From Mesorhizobium sp. J18 (GTDB lineage Bacteria; Pseudomonadota; Alphaproteobacteria; Rhizobiales; Rhizobiaceae), in the NCBI RefSeq assembly GCF_007829525.1, contig NZ_VLJP01000056.1, positions 1 through 64,000 of the forward strand: a stretch of 64,000 nt of DNA, in the 5' to 3' direction. How positions within the stretch are numbered: position 1 is the first letter of the stretch; each line of letters opens with the position of its first letter. The translations under genes were made by a program, and so were the position numbers. A model generated the notes under the pieces. It saw nothing but the letters and a program-made list of their open reading frames with translations, was not told the DNA's origin and made no database searches. This document shows, piece after piece, positions 723-9,470 of this stretch.

Positions 723-1421
723 CTACAGGCGCGTTACCATCCGATGGGTCCCGGGATGTGCCATGCGCACCAACGTGATCGGCTTCTCCTTCAGCCATGT
801 AATGCGTTCGCCGACGAACAGGGGAGCGCCAGCGCTCACATCGAGAAGACGCGCCTCCTCCTCATTGGCCGCTGCTGCCATGAAGGTGAATTCCGCGTCG
901 GAGAAAGGCGCATGGGTGACCAGCCACTCGTTCGGGCCTATCGTTTCGAAGCTCTCCTGACGTGCCGCGGGAACAGCTGTGAGATTGATCCAGCGATCCT
1001 CGAACTGATAGGGCGCCCCATCAGCCAGATGCAAGCAGCGCACGTGAAGCACAAGCTCGCTCAGCGATAGCCCGAGCCGGGCCGCAATCACTTCCGGAGG
1101 CCTGTCGATCGTGCGGCTGAGGAGCCTGTAACGGTATTCCGCGCCACGGGCGGTTATCTCATTGCCCACAATGGGGATAACGAAACGCGCCTCGCGTAGC
1201 GGGTGCAAGGCGACGCGCGTGCCAGACTTGCGCCGGCGCTCCACGAGACCCGAGCGCGCCAGTTCCTGCAAGGCGCGATTGACCGTTGCCCGGGCCGCAC
1301 CGAACTCGCGGGCAAGGACTTCTTCCCCCGGGATCAGCGTGCCCGGCGCCCAGACGCGTTCCGCGATGCGACGCGCCAGTTCTTCCTTGATGACGCGGAA
1401 GGAAATGCGGCCGTTTTTCAC
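723..1421 (-). CDS. hutC: Histidine utilisation repressor HutC (GntR/HutC family)
   Basis: Transcriptional repressor that classically senses urocanate and blocks hut transcription. The 232-residue product has an N-terminal winged helix-turn-helix of GntR type (around residues 5-70; PGEEVLAREFGAARATVNRAL is the recognition region) followed by a UTRA effector domain (RGAEYRYRL, YQFEDRWINL, FMAAAANEEEARLL). I choose the GTG at 1421: it overlaps the hutF stop as GTGA and gives the normal family length; the reading frame stays open upstream but that part overlaps hutF and has no family resemblance. It is translationally coupled to hutF, so the regulator sits in one of the operons it should control. 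Its probable operator is the inverted repeat at 2812-2844. Confidence 0.93.
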   Translation of the reverse strand: MKNGRISFRVIKEELARRIAERVWAPGTLIPGEEVLAREFGAARATVNRALQELARSGLVERRRKSGTRVALHPLREARFVIPIVGNEITARGAEYRYRLLSRTIDRPPEVIAARLGLSLSELVLHVRCLHLADGAPYQFEDRWINLTAVPAARQESFETIGPNEWLVTHAPFSDAEFTFMAAAANEEEARLLDVSAGAPLFVGERITWLKEKPITLVRMAHPGTHRMVTRL

Positions 1422-2785
1422 AGCCGGTCCATTATCAGGCGCATGGTCTCGCGATACCGGGCGCGGATTTCGCCTGCATGGATGTGCCGGCCGCTGCGTA
1501 CCATGTGACGCCCGGCACTCCACAGATCCGTGATAGCGCTACCATTGCCGCAAAAGACCCAGCCGTCGAGGATCCCGTCGCCATCGCTGATACCGGGCAG
1601 GCGTTCCGTATCAATCGCCACAAGGTCGGCTAACCCGCCGGGAGTGATGGTACCGCATTCACGGCCCAATGCCTGCGCGCCGCCGGCAAGAGCCTTGCCG
1701 TAGAGCACGCGGCCGGCGGATTCCCCTGGGCCGGCAAGGACGACACGCGCCCTGTCGCGCAACCTTTGCGAATATTCGAGCTGGCGCAGTTCCTCGATTG
1801 TGCTGATGCGGATATTGGAGTCCGAGCCGACACCGAACGAGCCGCCCGCCTCCACGAAGCGCGGAGCGTCGAAAATACCATCACCGAGATTGGCTTCAGT
1901 GACCGGACAGAGCCCGGCAACCGCCCCCGTACGGGCAAGGCCGATGGTCTCTTCCGGCAACATATGTGTGCAATGGATGAGGCACCAGCGGCGGTCGACT
2001 TCGAAAGTGTCGAGCAGCCAGGCGACAGGCCGCGCGTCATGGACCGCCAGCATCTCGTCTATCTCGGCTTCCTGCTCCGCGATATGCATGTGGAAAGGGC
2101 TTTCCGGCCGCAGGGCCAGCGCAGCTTGGATATCGTCACGATTGGCGGCGCGAAGGGAATGCGGCGCCACACCGAGACCGACATCAACCGGCAGGGCCTT
2201 CAGAATGGTCGCGGCACGCGCCATGAGGGCTTCGAACCCGGGGAGATCATTGCCGAAACGCAACTGCCCACCGGCAAGCGGGCGGCCATCGACGCCGCCA
2301 TGACGATAAAGAACCGGAAGAAGGGTCAGGCCGATACCCGTCTGCGAAGCCGCCGCGGCAATGCGCGCCGACAATTCGCCGACATCGTCATAGGGCGCTC
2401 CGCCCGGCTGGTGGTGCAGATAGTGGAATTCCGCCACGGCCGCGAAGCCTGCTTCCTGCATCTCCATGAATGCGAAGGCGGCGATCGCTTCGATGTCCTC
2501 GGGCGAAAGCAGATCGAGGAAGCGATACATGATCTCGCGCCAGGTCCAGAAACTGTCACGCCCAGCCGGCCCGCGCCTTTCGGCCAGCCCCGCCATGCCA
2601 CGCTGAAAGGTATGGCTGTGGAGGTTCGACAGTGCAGGGAGAAGCGCGTCCACCTGTGTCATCTCGGGGCCAGGCCGCGTCTCCGAGTCGACCGTTGCGA
2701 TACGGCCGTCAGCGTCGATGGAGACCTGCACATTCTTAAGCCAGCCTTGCGGGGTGAGGGCTATGCGCGCAAAAATTTCGGGCAT
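1418..2785 (-). CDS. hutF: Formimidoylglutamate deiminase HutF
   Basis: Hydrolyses N-formimino-L-glutamate to N-formyl-L-glutamate plus ammonia, step four of the five-step histidine pathway. It is an amidohydrolase-superfamily metal enzyme of 455 residues. The metal-binding HxH is seen in LSNLHSHTFQRGMAG (His56 and His58), later metal/catalytic stretches are HMHIAEQ and LIHCTHM, and the C-terminal GSDSNIRIS carries the expected Asp. The ATG at 2785 is preferred over a GTG three codons upstream because GGAAA sits 9 bases before it. Divergent from hutI across a 78-bp control region; its stop overlaps the hutC start. HutF together with HutG means glutamate is reached through formylglutamate, not by a single formiminoglutamase. 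Confidence 0.95.
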   Translation of the reverse strand: MPEIFARIALTPQGWLKNVQVSIDADGRIATVDSETRPGPEMTQVDALLPALSNLHSHTFQRGMAGLAERRGPAGRDSFWTWREIMYRFLDLLSPEDIEAIAAFAFMEMQEAGFAAVAEFHYLHHQPGGAPYDDVGELSARIAAAASQTGIGLTLLPVLYRHGGVDGRPLAGGQLRFGNDLPGFEALMARAATILKALPVDVGLGVAPHSLRAANRDDIQAALALRPESPFHMHIAEQEAEIDEMLAVHDARPVAWLLDTFEVDRRWCLIHCTHMLPEETIGLARTGAVAGLCPVTEANLGDGIFDAPRFVEAGGSFGVGSDSNIRISTIEELRQLEYSQRLRDRARVVLAGPGESAGRVLYGKALAGGAQALGRECGTITPGGLADLVAIDTERLPGISDGDGILDGWVFCGNGSAITDLWSAGRHMVRSGRHIHAGEIRARYRETMRLIMDRL

Positions 2786-2811
2786 CGGCAACACTTTCCG
2801 TTTGACTTGAT

Positions 2812-2863: not shown

Positions 2864-4072
2864 ATGGCCCGGAAGACGATTACGGGAATCCGTCTTGCGA
2901 CGATGGAGCTGAATATGGGCCCATACGGGCTTGTCGATCGCGGTGCCGTCGCCGTCGAGGATGACCGGATCGTTTGGGCAGGACAGGAAAAGGACCTCCC
3001 CGCCGAGTGGCGCAAGGCTGAGGCGGAGGATTTCGATGGCCGCCTGGCGACCCCCGCACTTGTCGATTGTCACACCCATCTGGTCTTTGGCGGAAACCGC
3101 GCCCGTGAGTTCGAGATGCGGCTGGAGGGCGCCAGCTATGAAGAGATCGCGCGCGCCGGCGGCGGCATTGTTTCGACCGTTTCTGCCACCCGCGATCTGG
3201 ATGAGAACCAGCTTGTCCAAGCCGCCTTGCCGCGGCTTGATGCTCTGATCGCCGAGGGTGTCGCGACGATCGAGATCAAGTCCGGCTACGGCCTGACGAT
3301 CGAGGACGAATTGAAGATGCTGCGTACGGCTCGCCGGCTGGGAACCATGCGCCAGATCCGGGTCGTCACGTCCTATCTCGCCGCGCATGCGGTTCCGGCC
3401 GAATACAAGTCCCACGCCGATGCCTATATCGACGAGGTGGTGCTGCCGGGCTTGGAAGCTGCCCGGGAAGAAGGGCTGGTCGACGCCGTTGACGGTTTCT
3501 GCGAGGGCATCGCTTTTTCACCGGAACAGATGGCCCGCGTCTTCGACAGGGCGCGCTCGCTCGGTCTGCCGGTCAAGCTGCATGCCGAGCAGCTTTCCAA
3601 TCTCGACGGAGCGAAACTCGCAGCCTCCTACGGCGCGCTCTCTGCCGATCATCTCGAATATCTGGACGAGGAAGGCGTGGCCGCCATGACGAAGAGCGGC
3701 ACCGTAGCCGTCTTGCTGCCTGGGGCCTTCTACACACTGCGCGAGAAGCAGGCTCCGCCCGTCGCAGCTCTGCGTGAAGCAGGCGTTCCGATCGCGATCG
3801 CGACGGATTGCAATCCCGGCTCCTCGCCGCTCGCCTCGCTGCTCCTGACCATCAATATGGCATCGACCCTCTTCCGGTTGACGCCGGAGGAGGCTCTGGC
3901 CGGCGTGACAAGGAATGCCGCGCGAGCACTGGGCCTACATCGGGAAATCGGCACGATAGCACCCGGCAAGCGCGTCGAGATCGCCATCTGGGATGTCGAA
4001 CACCCGGCCGAGCTTGCCTATCGTATTGGCTTCAACCCCCTTCACCGACGGATGGTCGAGGCGGTATCATGA
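2864..4072 (+). CDS. hutI: Imidazolonepropionase HutI
   Basis: Opens the ring of 4-imidazolone-5-propionate to give N-formimino-L-glutamate (third hut step). 402 residues, the usual length. Metal and active-site signatures are visible: [13 protein letters not shown] (His70, His72), the HAEQ motif (His240) and ATDCNPG (Asp315), placing it in the metal-dependent amidohydrolase superfamily; IEIKSGYGL is another family hallmark. The ATG at 2864 has GGGAA nine bases upstream. It is the first gene of the rightward operon and its stop overlaps the hutH start as ATGA, indicating translational coupling. Confidence 0.97.
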
Positions 4073-5604
4073 CCCTCATTCTGCAACCGGGCGCCGTCTC
4101 GCTCGAAACCCTGATGAAGATTTATCGTGAAGCCGGGAGCGTGCGCGTCGATCCCACCTTCGATGAGCGGATTGAGGCCTCCGCCCGGCGTATTGGCGAG
4201 ATAGCTGGCGGTGATGAGCCGGTCTACGGCGTCAATACGGGCTTTGGAAAGCTCGCCAGCATGCGCATCCCGGCCGCCGATGTCGCTACCCTTCAACGCA
4301 ACCTGATCCTTTCGCATTGCTGCGGGGTCGGCGCGCCGCTCGGACCGGATATCGTACGGCTCATCATGGCACTGAAGCTCGTCTCGCTTGGCCGCGGAGC
4401 ATCGGGTGTCCGCCTTGAGATCGTGCGGCTGATCGAGGCGATGCTGGAGCGCGATGTCCTTCCGGTCATTCCCGAAAAGGGTTCCGTCGGCGCCTCGGGC
4501 GATCTGGCGCCACTGGCCCATATGGCCGCTGCCATGATCGGCGAAGGCGAAGTCTTTTATGAAGGCACCCCCATGCCGGCACGCTCGGCTCTTCAAAAGG
4601 CCGGTCTCGAACCGGTCAGGCTCGCAGCCAAGGAGGGGCTCGCGCTGATCAACGGCACGCAGGTCTCGACTGCCCTCGCCCTCGCGGGCCTGTTCCGAGC
4701 GCATCGCGCCGCGCGTTCGGCGCTGATTACCGGAGCGCTTTCGACCGATGCGGCCATGGGTTCTTCGGCGCCCTTCCATCCGGAAATCCACACGCTGCGC
4801 GGCCATCGCGGCCAGATCGACACCGCAGCAGCACTCTGGTGCCTGCTGGATGGTTCGGAAATCCGTGAAAGCCATCGCGAGGGTGACGAGCGGGTGCAGG
4901 ATCCCTATTGTATCCGCTGCCAGCCGCAGGTGGATGGCGCCGCGCTGGACGTCCTGCGGCAGGCTGCACGGACTCTGGAAACGGAAGCCAATGCGGTCAC
5001 CGACAATCCGCTCGTGCTTTCGGACGGGTCCGTCGTTTCCGGGGGCAATTTCCACGCCGAGCCGGTGGCATTCGCGGCTGACCAGATAGCGCTCGCTATT
5101 TGCGAGATCGGCGCGATCGCCCAGAGACGCATTGCGCTCCTGGTCGATCCAGCGCTCTCCTTCGGCCTGCCGGCCTTCCTCGCCAAGAAGCCGGGGCTGA
5201 ATTCCGGTCTGATGATTGCCGAGGTCACTTCGGCCGCGCTGATGTCGGAAAACAAGCAGATGGCGCATCCGGCATCGGTGGATTCCACACCGACTTCCGC
5301 CAACCAGGAGGACCACGTCTCCATGGCCTGCCATGGGGCACGGCGGCTGATCGCAATGACAGATAATCTTTTCGGCATTATCGGCATCGAGGCCGTAACC
5401 GCCGCACAAGGCATTGATCTGCGCGCGCCGCTGAAGACAAGCGCGGAGCTTCAAAAGGCACATGCAGCGATCCGGCAGGTCGTGCCGGAACTCGAAGTGG
5501 ACCGCTATATGGCCACGGATCTCGAGGCAGCAATCGAGCTGGTGCGTTCCGGCGACCTGAATGCCAGCGTGTCGGAAGGCATATTGCCGGGACTGGAAGC
5601 GTGA
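4069..5604 (+). CDS. hutH: Histidine ammonia-lyase HutH
   Basis: Removes ammonia from L-histidine to give urocanate, the entry step. 511 residues starting at the ATG that overlaps the hutI stop; the frame is open further upstream, but that part lies antisense-free inside hutI and lacks family similarity. [14 protein letters not shown] carries Ala142-Ser143-Gly144, the triad that cyclises into the MIO prosthetic group. Further ammonia-lyase hallmarks are [11 protein letters not shown] near residue 55 and [11 protein letters not shown] near residue 280. The operon context (hutI before, hutG and hutU after) makes histidine rather than tyrosine or phenylalanine the clear substrate. Confidence 0.97.
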
Positions 5605-5606
5605 TC

Positions 5607-6419
5607 ATGGCCCCTGTTGAAGTCAGGCGGGGCTCTTCACCCGTTATCCTCGGCCTGCCTCATACAGGCACCGAGGTGCCACCCGATATCTGGGACGATC
5701 TGAACGAGGAAGGGCACCGGCTGCGTGACACGGACTGGCATGTCCATCGCCTCTATGACGGCTTGCTGCCCGACGTTACCACGGTTCGAGCGCACTTCCA
5801 TCGCTATGTCATAGACGCCAATCGCGATCCCTCGGGCCGGAGCCTTTATCCAGGACAGAACACGACCGGACTCGTGCCGCTCACCGATTTCGACAATCAG
5901 CAAATCTGGCGGGAAGGTCGCGAGCCTGACGATAGCGAGATAGAAAGGCGGCGGTCGCTCTTCCATCAACCTTATCACGCCGCTCTCGCCGAGGAGATCG
6001 AGCGGGTGAAGAAACTGCATGGCGTGGCCATACTTTATGATTGCCACTCCATACGCTCGGTCTGCCCATATCTGTTCGAAGGCCGCCTGCCGGATTTCAA
6101 TATAGGTACTGACAACGGCAGCACCTGTGCCCCCGAGATCGAAACGGCAGTAGCCGCGATCTGTGCCGATGCCTCGGGCTATTCTCACGTTCTGAACGGC
6201 CGCTTCCGCGGCGGCTGGACGACCCGCCATTACGGCCGGCCGCAGGAAGGCGTCCATGCCATCCAGATGGAACTCGCACAGGCGACGCATCTGGAGACCG
6301 AAGAACCGCCCTTCGCCTATGACGAAGGCAAGGCCGAAAAGCTGCGCATCCATCTGCGCTCCATCCTGGAGCGGCTCGAAGAGCTCGCGCTGACACTGAA
6401 ATCCGGAGAGGTCCGATGA
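5607..6419 (+). CDS. hutG: N-formylglutamate deformylase HutG
   Basis: Hydrolyses N-formyl-L-glutamate to L-glutamate and formate, the last step when HutF is present. The protein belongs to the N-formylglutamate amidohydrolase family: [11 protein letters not shown] at the N-terminus, then [23 protein letters not shown] and LYDCHSIRS supply the conserved His/Asp/Arg residues. 270 residues from the ATG at 5607, which has GGAAG seven bases upstream; a GTG at 5601 overlapping the hutH stop is an alternative adding two residues. Its stop overlaps the hutU start. Gene order and the presence of hutF make this assignment stronger than the domain alone. Confidence 0.93.
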
Positions 6420-8086
6420 ACAATCCCCGCCACAATATCCGTGAGGTGCGTGCGCCGCGCGGCACCGATCTCAACGCGCTTTCCTGGCTGACGGAAGCTC
6501 CGTTGCGGATGCTGATGAACAATCTCGATCCCGACGTGGCGGAGAATCCGAACGAACTGGTCGTCTATGGCGGCATCGGCCGCGCGGCCCGCACCTGGGA
6601 CGATTTCGACCGTATCGTCGCCACGCTGAAGACATTGAAGGAGGACGAGACGCTGCTCGTCCAGTCCGGCAAGCCGGTAGGCGTTTTCCGCACCCACACT
6701 GATGCGCCGCGCGTGCTGATCGCCAATTCCAATCTCGTGCCGCACTGGGCGACCTGGGATCATTTCAACAAGCTCGATCGTCAGGGCCTGATGATGTACG
6801 GTCAGATGACCGCCGGTTCCTGGATCTATATCGGAACGCAAGGAATCGTACAGGGCACTTACGAGACTTTCGTCGAGGCGGGCCGCCAGCATTACGATGG
6901 CAATCTCAAGGGCAAGTGGATACTGACCTCCGGGCTTGGCGGCATGGGAGGCGCGCAGCCGTTGGCCGCAGTCATGGCCGGCGCCTCATGCCTCGCCATC
7001 GAATGCGATTCCGACCGCATCGCCTTCCGCTTGAGAACCCGTTATCTCGACGAGAAGGCCGAGACGCTGGACGATGCACTGGCGATGATCGAGCGCTGGA
7101 CCAAGGCAGGCGAGACGAAGTCGGTCGGTCTTCTCGGCAATGCCTCAGAGCTTCTGCCTGAGCTCGTGAAGCGCGGAGTAAGGCCGGATATCGTGACCGA
7201 CCAGACTTCGGCGCACGACCCGCTCAATGGATATCTCCCGAAAGGCTGGTCCCTGGCCGAATGGCGCGAAAAACGCGAGAGCGACCCGAAGGCGGTGGAG
7301 AAGGCTGCGCGCGCCTCCATGCGCGAGCATGTAGAGGCCATGGTCGCCTTCTGGAACGACGGCATTCCGACGCTCGACTATGGCAACAATATCCGCCAGG
7401 TGGCGAAGGAGGAAGGCTTTGACAATGCCTTTGCATTTCCGGGCTTCGTGCCGGCCTATATCAGGCCGCTCTTCTGCCGCGGCATAGGCCCCTTCCGCTG
7501 GGCGGCGCTTTCCGGCGACCCTGAGGACATCTATCGCACCGACGAGAAGGTGAAGGAGCTCCTACCCGACAATCACCACCTGCATCGCTGGCTCGACATG
7601 GCGCGCGAGCGCATCGCCTTCCAGGGCTTGCCGGCACGCATCTGCTGGGTCGGCCTCGGCGACCGTCATCGCCTCGGTCTTGCCTTTAACGAGATGGTGG
7701 CGAAAGGCGAGCTGAAGGCACCCGTTGTTATTGGCCGAGACCATCTGGATTCCGGCTCGGTGGCTTCCCCCAACCGGGAGACGGAAGCGATGATCGACGG
7801 ATCGGACGCGGTGTCCGACTGGCCGCTGCTCAATGCCCTGCTCAACTGTGCCTCGGGCGCGACCTGGGTATCTTTACATCATGGTGGCGGCGTCGGCATG
7901 GGCTTCTCGCAGCATGCCGGCATGGTGATCTGCGCCGATGGCACCCCGGAGGCGGCGCGGCGGCTCGAGCGGGTGTTGTGGAACGATCCGGCGACCGGCG
8001 TCATGCGCCACGCCGATGCGGGCTACGAAACCGCACTCGAGTGTGCGCGTGAGCATCAGTTGAACCTTCCCGGCATCCTGCCCTGA
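6416..8086 (+). CDS. hutU: Urocanate hydratase HutU
   Basis: NAD-dependent conversion of urocanate to imidazolonepropionate (second step). 556 residues, full length for the family. Seen directly: [13 protein letters not shown] near the N-terminus, [21 protein letters not shown], the dinucleotide-binding [15 protein letters not shown], and the active-site cysteine in [11 protein letters not shown], which computes to Cys410, the position described for urocanases. The C-terminal [15 protein letters not shown] is also diagnostic. The start overlaps the hutG stop by four bases. A 7-bp-stem hairpin immediately follows the stop codon, before the membrane-protein gene. Confidence 0.97.
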
Positions 8087-8106
8087 TGCCGGCAAACGAG
8101 CCGGCA
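8087..8106. other. Intercistronic hairpin after hutU
   Basis: TGCCGGC (8087-8093), a 6-base loop, then GCCGGCA (8100-8106): a perfect GC-rich 7-bp stem starting on the base after the hutU stop. No T-run follows, so it is more likely an mRNA-stabilising or partial-attenuation element than a full terminator. Confidence 0.45.
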
Positions 8107-8141: not shown

Positions 8142-9470
8142 GTGACGAATAATTCGATGATCATGACCGGTGGCAGCCAGGTGCAGAACCTGCTGAAGCT
8201 CATTCTCTGCAGCGCAGTGGGTATTTTTGCCTTCTTCGTGCCGGTCACCATCGGCGGCAAAACCACCATTCCGCTCGATCACGCCGCCAACGCGGTGACC
8301 ACCTTTGCCAAGCCGGCTGCAATCGTATTCGTCTGCGCGCTGATCCTTTACGGTGCGATTGCGCCCTTCATTGCCGGGCGGTGGCGCGAGGATACTGCCG
8401 CGATCATATTCTCCATCCTGAGGCTGTTGGGTGTCGTCTTCACGGCAATGTATCTCACCGGCATCGGACCAGCAGCACTCTTTGCACCTGACATGCTGCC
8501 TTTCCTGTTCGACAAACTGGTGCTTTCGGTCGGCATCATAGTGCCGATCGGCGCGCTGGCTCTGGGTTTCCTCGTCGGCTACGGTCTGCTCGAATTCACC
8601 GGCGTCATCGTACAGCCGATCATGCGTCCGGTCTGGCGCACGCCAGGCTGGTCGGCCATCGATGCCGTGGCTTCCTTCGTCGGCAGCTATTCGATTGCGC
8701 TGCTGATCACCGACCGCGTGTTCAAGCAAGGCAAATATTCGGTCCGGGAGGCAGCGATCATCGCTACCGGATTCTCCACCGTTTCGGCCACTTTCATGAT
8801 CATCGTGGCCAGAACCCTCGGACTGATGGATAGCTGGAATCTCTACTTCTGGGGCACGCTGGTGGTGACATTCGTCGTTACGGCCATATCGGCGCGGCTC
8901 TGGCCACTTGCCAGTCTCGAGCATGGCGACCGCACAGATCCGCCATTGCCGCAGGGACGTAACCGTCTGCAAACAGCGTTCGACGAGGGGCTAAAACAAG
9001 CCGCATCCGCCCCGCCCCTGCTGCGGAACCTGGCGGACACTTTCGTCGATGGGCTGCGCATGGCCTCGATCATCCTGCCGAGCATCATGGCGGTGGGACT
9101 GCTGGGACTCCTGGCTGCGAAATACACGCCCATCTTCGATGCAGTCGGCGTGCTGCTTTATCCGTTTGCCTGGATCGGGCGCCTGTCGGAAGCCATGGAG
9201 GCTTCCCGGGCTATGGCATCCGGTCTTGCCGAAATGTTCCTCCCGGCGCTGCTGCTCAAAGACGCCGACATCGTGGTCAAATTCACCGCTGCGGTTGTTT
9301 CGGTGAGCCAGGTCTTGTTCCTGTCAGCCTCGATCCCCTGCGTGCTGGCGACCAGCATCCCGATCCGTTTCCGTGACATGATCGTGATCTGGTACATCCG
9401 CACCGCGCTCAGCATCGTGCTGTCGGCAGGCCTTGCCTGGTTGGCGTTCGGCCTCGGCTGGCTCGCCTGA
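8142..9470 (+). CDS. YjiH-type membrane protein (Gate/nucleoside-recognition fold)
   Basis: A 442-residue integral membrane protein resembling the YjiH family, with Gate-domain (nucleoside-recognition) character. I count roughly ten hydrophobic segments, including LLKLILCSAVGIFAFFVPVT, a run near residue 60 (IVFVCALILYGAI), several between residues 95 and 245, a loop with charged residues around 250-300, and four more to the C-terminus. GTG start at 8142 with AAGGAG seven bases upstream. It follows hutU by 55 bp, separated by a small hairpin, and is the only transporter-like gene in the hut locus. A role in histidine or urocanate transport is inference from position only; the family has no assured substrate. 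Confidence 0.75.
   Translation: MTNNSMIMTGGSQVQNLLKLILCSAVGIFAFFVPVTIGGKTTIPLDHAANAVTTFAKPAAIVFVCALILYGAIAPFIAGRWREDTAAIIFSILRLLGVVFTAMYLTGIGPAALFAPDMLPFLFDKLVLSVGIIVPIGALALGFLVGYGLLEFTGVIVQPIMRPVWRTPGWSAIDAVASFVGSYSIALLITDRVFKQGKYSVREAAIIATGFSTVSATFMIIVARTLGLMDSWNLYFWGTLVVTFVVTAISARLWPLASLEHGDRTDPPLPQGRNRLQTAFDEGLKQAASAPPLLRNLADTFVDGLRMASIILPSIMAVGLLGLLAAKYTPIFDAVGVLLYPFAWIGRLSEAMEASRAMASGLAEMFLPALLLKDADIVVKFTAAVVSVSQVLFLSASIPCVLATSIPIRFRDMIVIWYIRTALSIVLSAGLAWLAFGLGWLA

Follow-up and report, generated by a model that had tools for sequence, protein, structure and literature searches.

The gene at positions 8142–9470 of the window (the whole 64,000-nucleotide stretch of Mesorhizobium sp. J18 DNA that was analyzed) almost certainly encodes a carrier of the hut system. 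The protein belongs to a clade of the YjiH/Gate family for which import of urocanate is the best single reading and, as judged from sequence comparisons, a fairly probable one. A fuller proposal, whose chances appear evenly balanced, is that this hut-specific clade carries urocanate, an imidazole-acrylate, with an elevator fold like that of concentrative nucleoside transporters (CNT) and under HutC control, which would give the family its first substrate. It further holds that the clade extends across Pseudomonadota and Bacillota with relatives beside haloarchaeal hut operons, that an unrelated NCS1 carrier replaces it elsewhere, and that acidic residues at positions 125, 182 and 396 gave way to K, S and A in adaptation to an anionic substrate.

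The features of the region are as follows.

723–1523, minus strand: hutC, GntR/UTRA-type hut repressor (Pfam UTRA 7e-30, GntR 1.7e-15; place beside hutF)
1418–2794, minus strand: hutF, formimidoylglutamate deiminase (NCBIfam NF006684 622 bits, cut-off 525; TIGR02022 545.9, cut-off 413)
2812–2845, unstranded: probable HutC operator, inverted repeat TTGTATAGAC / GTCCATACAA between hutF and hutI (from sequence)
2864–4072, plus strand: hutI, imidazolonepropionase (TIGR01224 452 bits, cut-off 298)
4084–5604, plus strand: hutH, histidine ammonia-lyase, start approximate (TIGR01225 726 bits, cut-off 539)
5601–6419, plus strand: hutG, N-formylglutamate deformylase (TIGR02017 388 bits, cut-off 279)
6416–8086, plus strand: hutU, urocanate hydratase (TIGR01228 966 bits, cut-off 375; below the cut-offs of thiourocanate hydratase models)
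8087–8106, plus strand: perfect 7-bp hairpin TGCCGGC-N6-GCCGGCA directly behind the hutU stop, without a T-run
8142–9470, plus strand: yjiH, hut-clade YjiH/Gate carrier, proposed urocanate importer (Pfam Gate; AF2 model with CNT-type fold; hut linkage)

The operon is ordered hutI-hutH-hutG-hutU-yjiH with yjiH in last place and with hutF and hutC on the opposite strand. The four enzyme genes hutI, hutH, hutG and hutU each score above their NCBIfam equivalog cut-offs. The gene 3' of yjiH is mdoG, on the opposite strand, and the identified genes that lie between hutC and mdoG include no second transporter, which bears out the original prediction that yjiH is the sole transporter-like gene of the operon. 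Its open reading frame (442 aa) starts with GTG and has a good ribosome-binding site of its own, as had also been predicted, in the form of an AAGGAG about 6 nt upstream. The GC content is 0.603 for both yjiH and hutG and 0.609 for the whole window; the nearest named relatives are from Chelativorans for hutU (91%) and from Microvirga for YjiH (73%).

The hairpin had been foreseen immediately after hutU, as an element that may lower yjiH expression, and it is present at that position. The 66-nt stretch containing it folds more stably than 198 of 200 shuffled versions (z = -2.58). An intrinsic terminator behind hutU was rejected, since the hairpin has no T-run on its 3' side. A hairpin of 6 bp or more comes after hutU in 15/25 yjiH-bearing relatives versus 10/40 loci that lack yjiH, a comparison that shows little because the searched stretches differ in length. 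Long hutU-yjiH hairpins with A and T flanks (for example AAAGGC...GCCTTT), resembling partial terminators, occur at L059, L065, L068–L070, L072, L074 and L075. The contig of L074 is titled Bacillus subtilis SK6B4 and is probably mislabelled; its hut operon and YjiH are like those of Pseudochrobactrum.

In a sample of 297 genomes of the order Hyphomicrobiales, relatives at E up to 1e-10 were found in the genome of the window only. In a phylum sample of 398 genomes, 30 carry a relative and the matches form two sets, one from eight genomes besides the window's own at 52–60% identity and one from 24 places at 28–34% identity. Hut genes adjoin 7/8 of the close loci as opposed to none of the 12 distant neighborhoods examined out of the 24 places. 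A GTDB scan contributed the best 80 of 496 confirmed loci, 78 of which have hut genes in their flanks. Together with the eight close loci they make up a set of 88 closest loci, in which hut genes are present at 85 (84/87 distinct loci, since L032 and L103 are identical). The linkage is therefore shown for the nearest relatives only, because the scanned loci are the best 80 of 496; in addition, 12 of the 88 have less than 5 kb of sequence on one side. The loci lacking hut genes are L033, L080 and L113 (Thalassospira), and in L080 the sequence stops about 120 bases past yjiH. The original prediction had named a predominance of YjiH outside hut loci as the finding that would count against it, and such a predominance describes the wide family (0/12 distant neighborhoods with hut genes) but not the hut clade (85/88 closest loci, 80 of them the best of 496).

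Among these 88 closest loci (80 being the best of 496), the gene found within 400 bp of yjiH is hutU in 73, hutH in 12 and hutI in four. At least six gene orders occur, spread over Hyphomicrobiales, Pseudomonas, Bacillota, and beta- and gammaproteobacteria. The yjiH gene follows hutU in Hyphomicrobiales (U-yjiH) and precedes it in Pseudomonas and the betaproteobacteria (yjiH-U); it lies between hutU and hutH in Psychrobacter (U-yjiH-H), ends the series U-I-yjiH in Bacillota and comes after hutH in Sinorhizobium (H-yjiH), and in Oceanimonas and Oceanisphaera it is divergent from hutI. On pSymB of S. meliloti, the genes ahead of yjiH are hutF, those of a betaine-type ABC carrier, and one annotated as histidine ammonia-lyase; a relative's copy of that last gene scores below the hutH cut-off. 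In a tree, the hut clade stands apart from both the distant family and the haloarchaeal relatives with an SH-aLRT of 99, though it is a quick tree in which long branches leave the place of some rows unsure. By tree and operon, the yjiH product lies inside the supported hut clade and at a hut locus. L034 and L046 were left out of the alignments; the full-length set excluded L034 and L082 and was thinned to 42 rows below 88% identity. The yjiH gene of L034 (9057–10385, genome G371) has an in-frame TAG stop, which reflects either a decayed gene or a sequencing error.

Outside this set, a Vibrio relative (L263, 49% identity) has no hut neighbor in 19 kb and a best HutC match of 9/14, and an Aeromonas match (H9) is unannotated. 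Five haloarchaeal plasmid loci were examined, of which two adjoin hutUGIH and three do not. The two that do, L264 and L268, encode YjiH relatives of 33–35% identity with the gene of an HTH protein lying between, while L265 has yjiH and an HTH protein gene and no hut genes. The hut cluster is listed in a paper on gene functions in haloarchaea, whose text contains neither YjiH nor urocanate as a word (PMC8305020).

The clade is further tied to the hut system by HutC-type sequences. Available text of PMC12977541 gives the operator consensus as TGTA-N2-TACA. The window operator contains TGTATAGACA, one base off this consensus, and its best match to a 14-base HutC consensus is 10/14. The 360 bases around each yjiH start were scored against the 14-base consensus with at least 11/14 taken as positive, and loci were sorted by whether a hut enzyme gene precedes yjiH on its strand, automatic ORF-based sorting being unreliable in GC-rich DNA. 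Positive sequences were found at 18/22 loci in which no hut enzyme gene precedes yjiH versus 0/66 of the others, again among the 88 closest loci of which 80 are the best of 496. L033, L080 and L113, which have no hut neighbors, are all among the 18. The four negative loci are L081, L084, L089 and L117, and the contigs of the last two have less than 900 bases upstream. Neither the 12 distant YjiH genes nor any of 238 control leader ORFs reached 11/14; the controls are non-hut ORFs from the same loci, taken from automatic calls with a distance of 800 bases to hut genes. Shuffle values for single loci are modest (0.045 for L033, 0.02 for L113).

The yjiH product matches Pfam Gate (PF07670) with 45.7 bits (gathering cut-off 29.6, E = 1e-11) and is 72% identical over 97% of its length to Pseudochrobactrum proteins annotated as 'YjiH family protein'. 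The earlier label 'YjiH-like' is only loosely right: it agrees with the Gate match and with homologs so annotated, but E. coli K-12 YjiH and YjiG (227 and 153 aa) gave weak, short profile matches in hhalign (probability 6.5% over 62 columns for YjiH, and 28% over 32 columns). Gate was the sole family found at E up to 1e-3; at that threshold neither CNT sequence models, Transp_cyt_pur (PF02133, NCS1) nor AA_permease (PF00324, APC, HutT) matched, and a PDB sequence search gave no match at E up to 1. The AF2 model (mean pLDDT = 89.7, pTM = 0.87) has a predicted fold in common with CNT. The best CNT match has a VIA Z of 19.3 with 304 residues aligned and an RMSD of 3.8, and the first 13 rows of the ranking are all CNT structures (Z 19.3 to 13.5), the next group starting from 12.5. 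Foldseek against CNT structures returned an E of 1.5e-4 with a TM-score of about 0.45, and its TM-scores for CNT structures are low throughout (0.35–0.54). The likeness in fold stands against a sequence identity of about 14%. Helix breaks in the model at 180/183, 210/216, 362/367 and 389/397 resemble, by our reading, the hairpins and unwound helices of CNT-like carriers.

Distant YjiH family proteins (28–34% identity) share the length of the yjiH product and align with it over the full length; they differ in lacking hut neighbors (12/12 neighborhoods examined, of 24 places) and in largely having D or E at positions 182, 396 and 125. At 38 positions, the hut clade is largely fixed to a residue other than that in 11 distant rows. 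At the helix breaks these include S182 for D, Y183 for G, E364 for D and A396 for E, and K125 stands where the distant family has D. The loss of acidic groups could suit an anion such as urocanate.

The original prediction placed yjiH in the position usually held by hutT or hutM. This part did not hold for Hyphomicrobiales: 40 of the 62 hutU places in the order, all without yjiH, were searched for five carrier types (NCS1, APC, YuiF-like, BCCT and HutW-like, at 120 bits or more), and none of the 40 carries any of them. Replacement of hutT or hutM by yjiH was accordingly rejected there, and because the 40 loci are free of the five types, yjiH seems to have been added here to an operon otherwise without them. 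A search of the window's own genome for NCS1 at E up to 1e-10 had no match, which is uninformative taken alone.

The Pseudomonadaceae provide a comparison with a second carrier. Among 73 hutU neighborhoods from 68/119 genomes, YjiH is present at 11, always 62–67 bp 5' of hutU, and an NCS1 carrier at 29, always 3' of hutU (PF02133 for the member tested). The two occur together at none of the 73 loci (hypergeometric 0.002, kinship ignored). In 398 Pseudomonadaceae genomes, clade YjiH was found in 41, NCS1 in 148 and both in none (1.4e-9, uncorrected for relatedness), the counts coming from two samples drawn by the same rule and taken as the same 398 genomes. In this family, YjiH alternates with the NCS1 carrier. 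The exclusion is clustered on the tree; a kinship-aware test on the hutU tree found nine changes for YjiH (three of them forced) and three independent pairs on supported branches, and gave no significance.

The NCS1 carrier is taken as HutTu by gene order, published accounts and family name, and not by a sequence match to PA5099. We take PA5099 (HutTu) to belong to the NCS1 family. The assignment follows from the agreement of two gene orders with published ones. In the available text of two papers, HutTh is PA5097 and HutTu is PA5099 (PMC12977541), and hutH is PA5098 and hutU is PA5100 (PMC12772324); the L156 order is hutU-NCS1-hutH-APC-hutI-hutG. Excerpts of a review place hutTu, hutXWV and hutH1 between hutU and hutH in SBW25 (PMC8871633), and L196 and L198 read hutU, NCS1, ABC permease, hutH paralog, hutH. 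HutTu, like YjiH, is encoded beside hutU in hut loci, and YjiH is proposed here to share its substrate. Both also occur in the Pseudomonadaceae, none of the genomes sampled having the two together. The protein families are unrelated (Transp_cyt_pur PF02133 versus Gate PF07670). At L153, L154, L161, L162 and L188, second Pseudomonas loci carry hutC, hutU and NCS1 with no hutH in 17 kb of sequence and are possible urocanate-only loci. In the available parts of the literature, the inability of P. putida to grow on urocanate is attributed to want of such a carrier (PMC12772324), and differences among pseudomonads in urocanate use are traced to transport (PMC7319117).

Other carriers, namely HutT/HutTh (an APC amino acid permease), HutXWV (ABC) and YuiF-like proteins, are also encoded in hut loci and also belong to families other than that of YjiH, but they coexist with it. 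A HutW-like ABC permease is present at six YjiH-bearing Pseudomonadaceae loci, a YuiF-like carrier at two and an APC carrier at one, amounting to 8/11 loci in all. The presence of histidine-type carriers beside YjiH suggests another substrate for YjiH. Labels of this kind are insecure when assigned by carrier family, because the HutT of K. pneumoniae is called a urocanate transporter in the available text of one paper (PMC12188710).

From these comparisons, the original description of a candidate histidine or urocanate carrier stands as far as a hut carrier is concerned (85/88 closest loci, 80 of them the best of 496, with HutC-like operators at the other three) and may be refined in favor of urocanate, the better supported of the two substrates. 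We still infer the substrate, because the exclusion is not significant when relatedness is considered and because 70 of the 88 closest loci (80 being the best of 496) lack any further carrier among the five types searched for. That the clade instead carries histidine, as a further unrelated type beside the HutT, YuiF-like, BCCT and ABC carriers of hut loci, is unlikely. Histidine fits equally with the 70 loci just mentioned and with the presence of hutH in the window operon and in 81/88 of the same loci, but it accords less well with the pairing of YjiH with histidine-type carriers at 8/11 Pseudomonadaceae loci and with NCS1 at none, and with the usual close neighbor being hutU (73/88 within 400 bp) and not hutH (12/88). 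One locus also lacks hutH: in a Neobacillus of the Bacillota (L126), hutU-hutI-yjiH follows an AraC-type regulator, with hutU and hutI above equivalog cut-offs and no hutH match nearer than 100 kb. It is a single case, in a genome with hutH copies elsewhere; this genome (Neobacillus mesonae, G655) has four hutU-like and three hutH-like matches.

It is less likely still that urocanate is just one of several substrates of the clade, the others being imidazole-acrylate or -propionate compounds (thiourocanates, dihydrourocanate) or a different intermediate of the pathway. The case for it comes from a Paracoccus seriniphilus plasmid (L262, 3783–10191), on which a 51%-identical YjiH is clustered with a HutI-like protein and a urocanase-like hydratase scoring 945.9 against the NCBIfam S-methyl thiourocanate hydratase cut-off of 880; this is, however, a single locus on a long branch, and the YjiH and lyase genes annotated there fall short of the usual length. 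The L262 protein itself is a possible carrier for thio-imidazole compounds. Export of urocanate or of another product, or sensing in place of transport, is improbable. Direction is not readable from sequence or fold, and no computed result favors export; a catabolic operon would presumably gain little by exporting its own intermediate, and the protein has no fused signaling domain (Gate is the only Pfam match). Least probable is that the clade's linkage to hut genes merely persists as a passive relic from the spread of operons and that the substrate has no relation to histidine catabolism. Distant members of the family do lie near other genes such as U32 peptidases, but the differing gene orders of the hut clade and the separate HutC-type sequences, which also precede the three loci without hut neighbors, argue against a relic.

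Under the preferred reading of urocanate import, the yjiH product would be a secondary carrier of the inner membrane whose CNT fold comprises two hairpins and two broken helices, and from that fold it may operate by an elevator mechanism. Members of the hut-linked clade would import urocanate, probably with a H+ or Na+ gradient, and the imported urocanate would feed HutU, which is encoded just upstream. A review describes urocanate as the inducer in Pseudomonas, where it relieves repression by HutC (PMC8871633). By presumed HutC binding, the imported urocanate would also lift repression and turn the operon on, so that with the carrier the cell could sense and consume external urocanate even in the absence of histidine.

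Among the search listings and passages of the literature consulted, which was mostly open-access, no link of the YjiH family to histidine or urocanate transport was found. If the proposal is true, it would supply the first substrate for a family of carriers that bear just the annotation 'YjiH family protein'. It would also explain how urocanate, which doubles as the hut inducer, might be used by bacteria without HutTu. The same kind of locus would then be served in one function by two unrelated carrier types.
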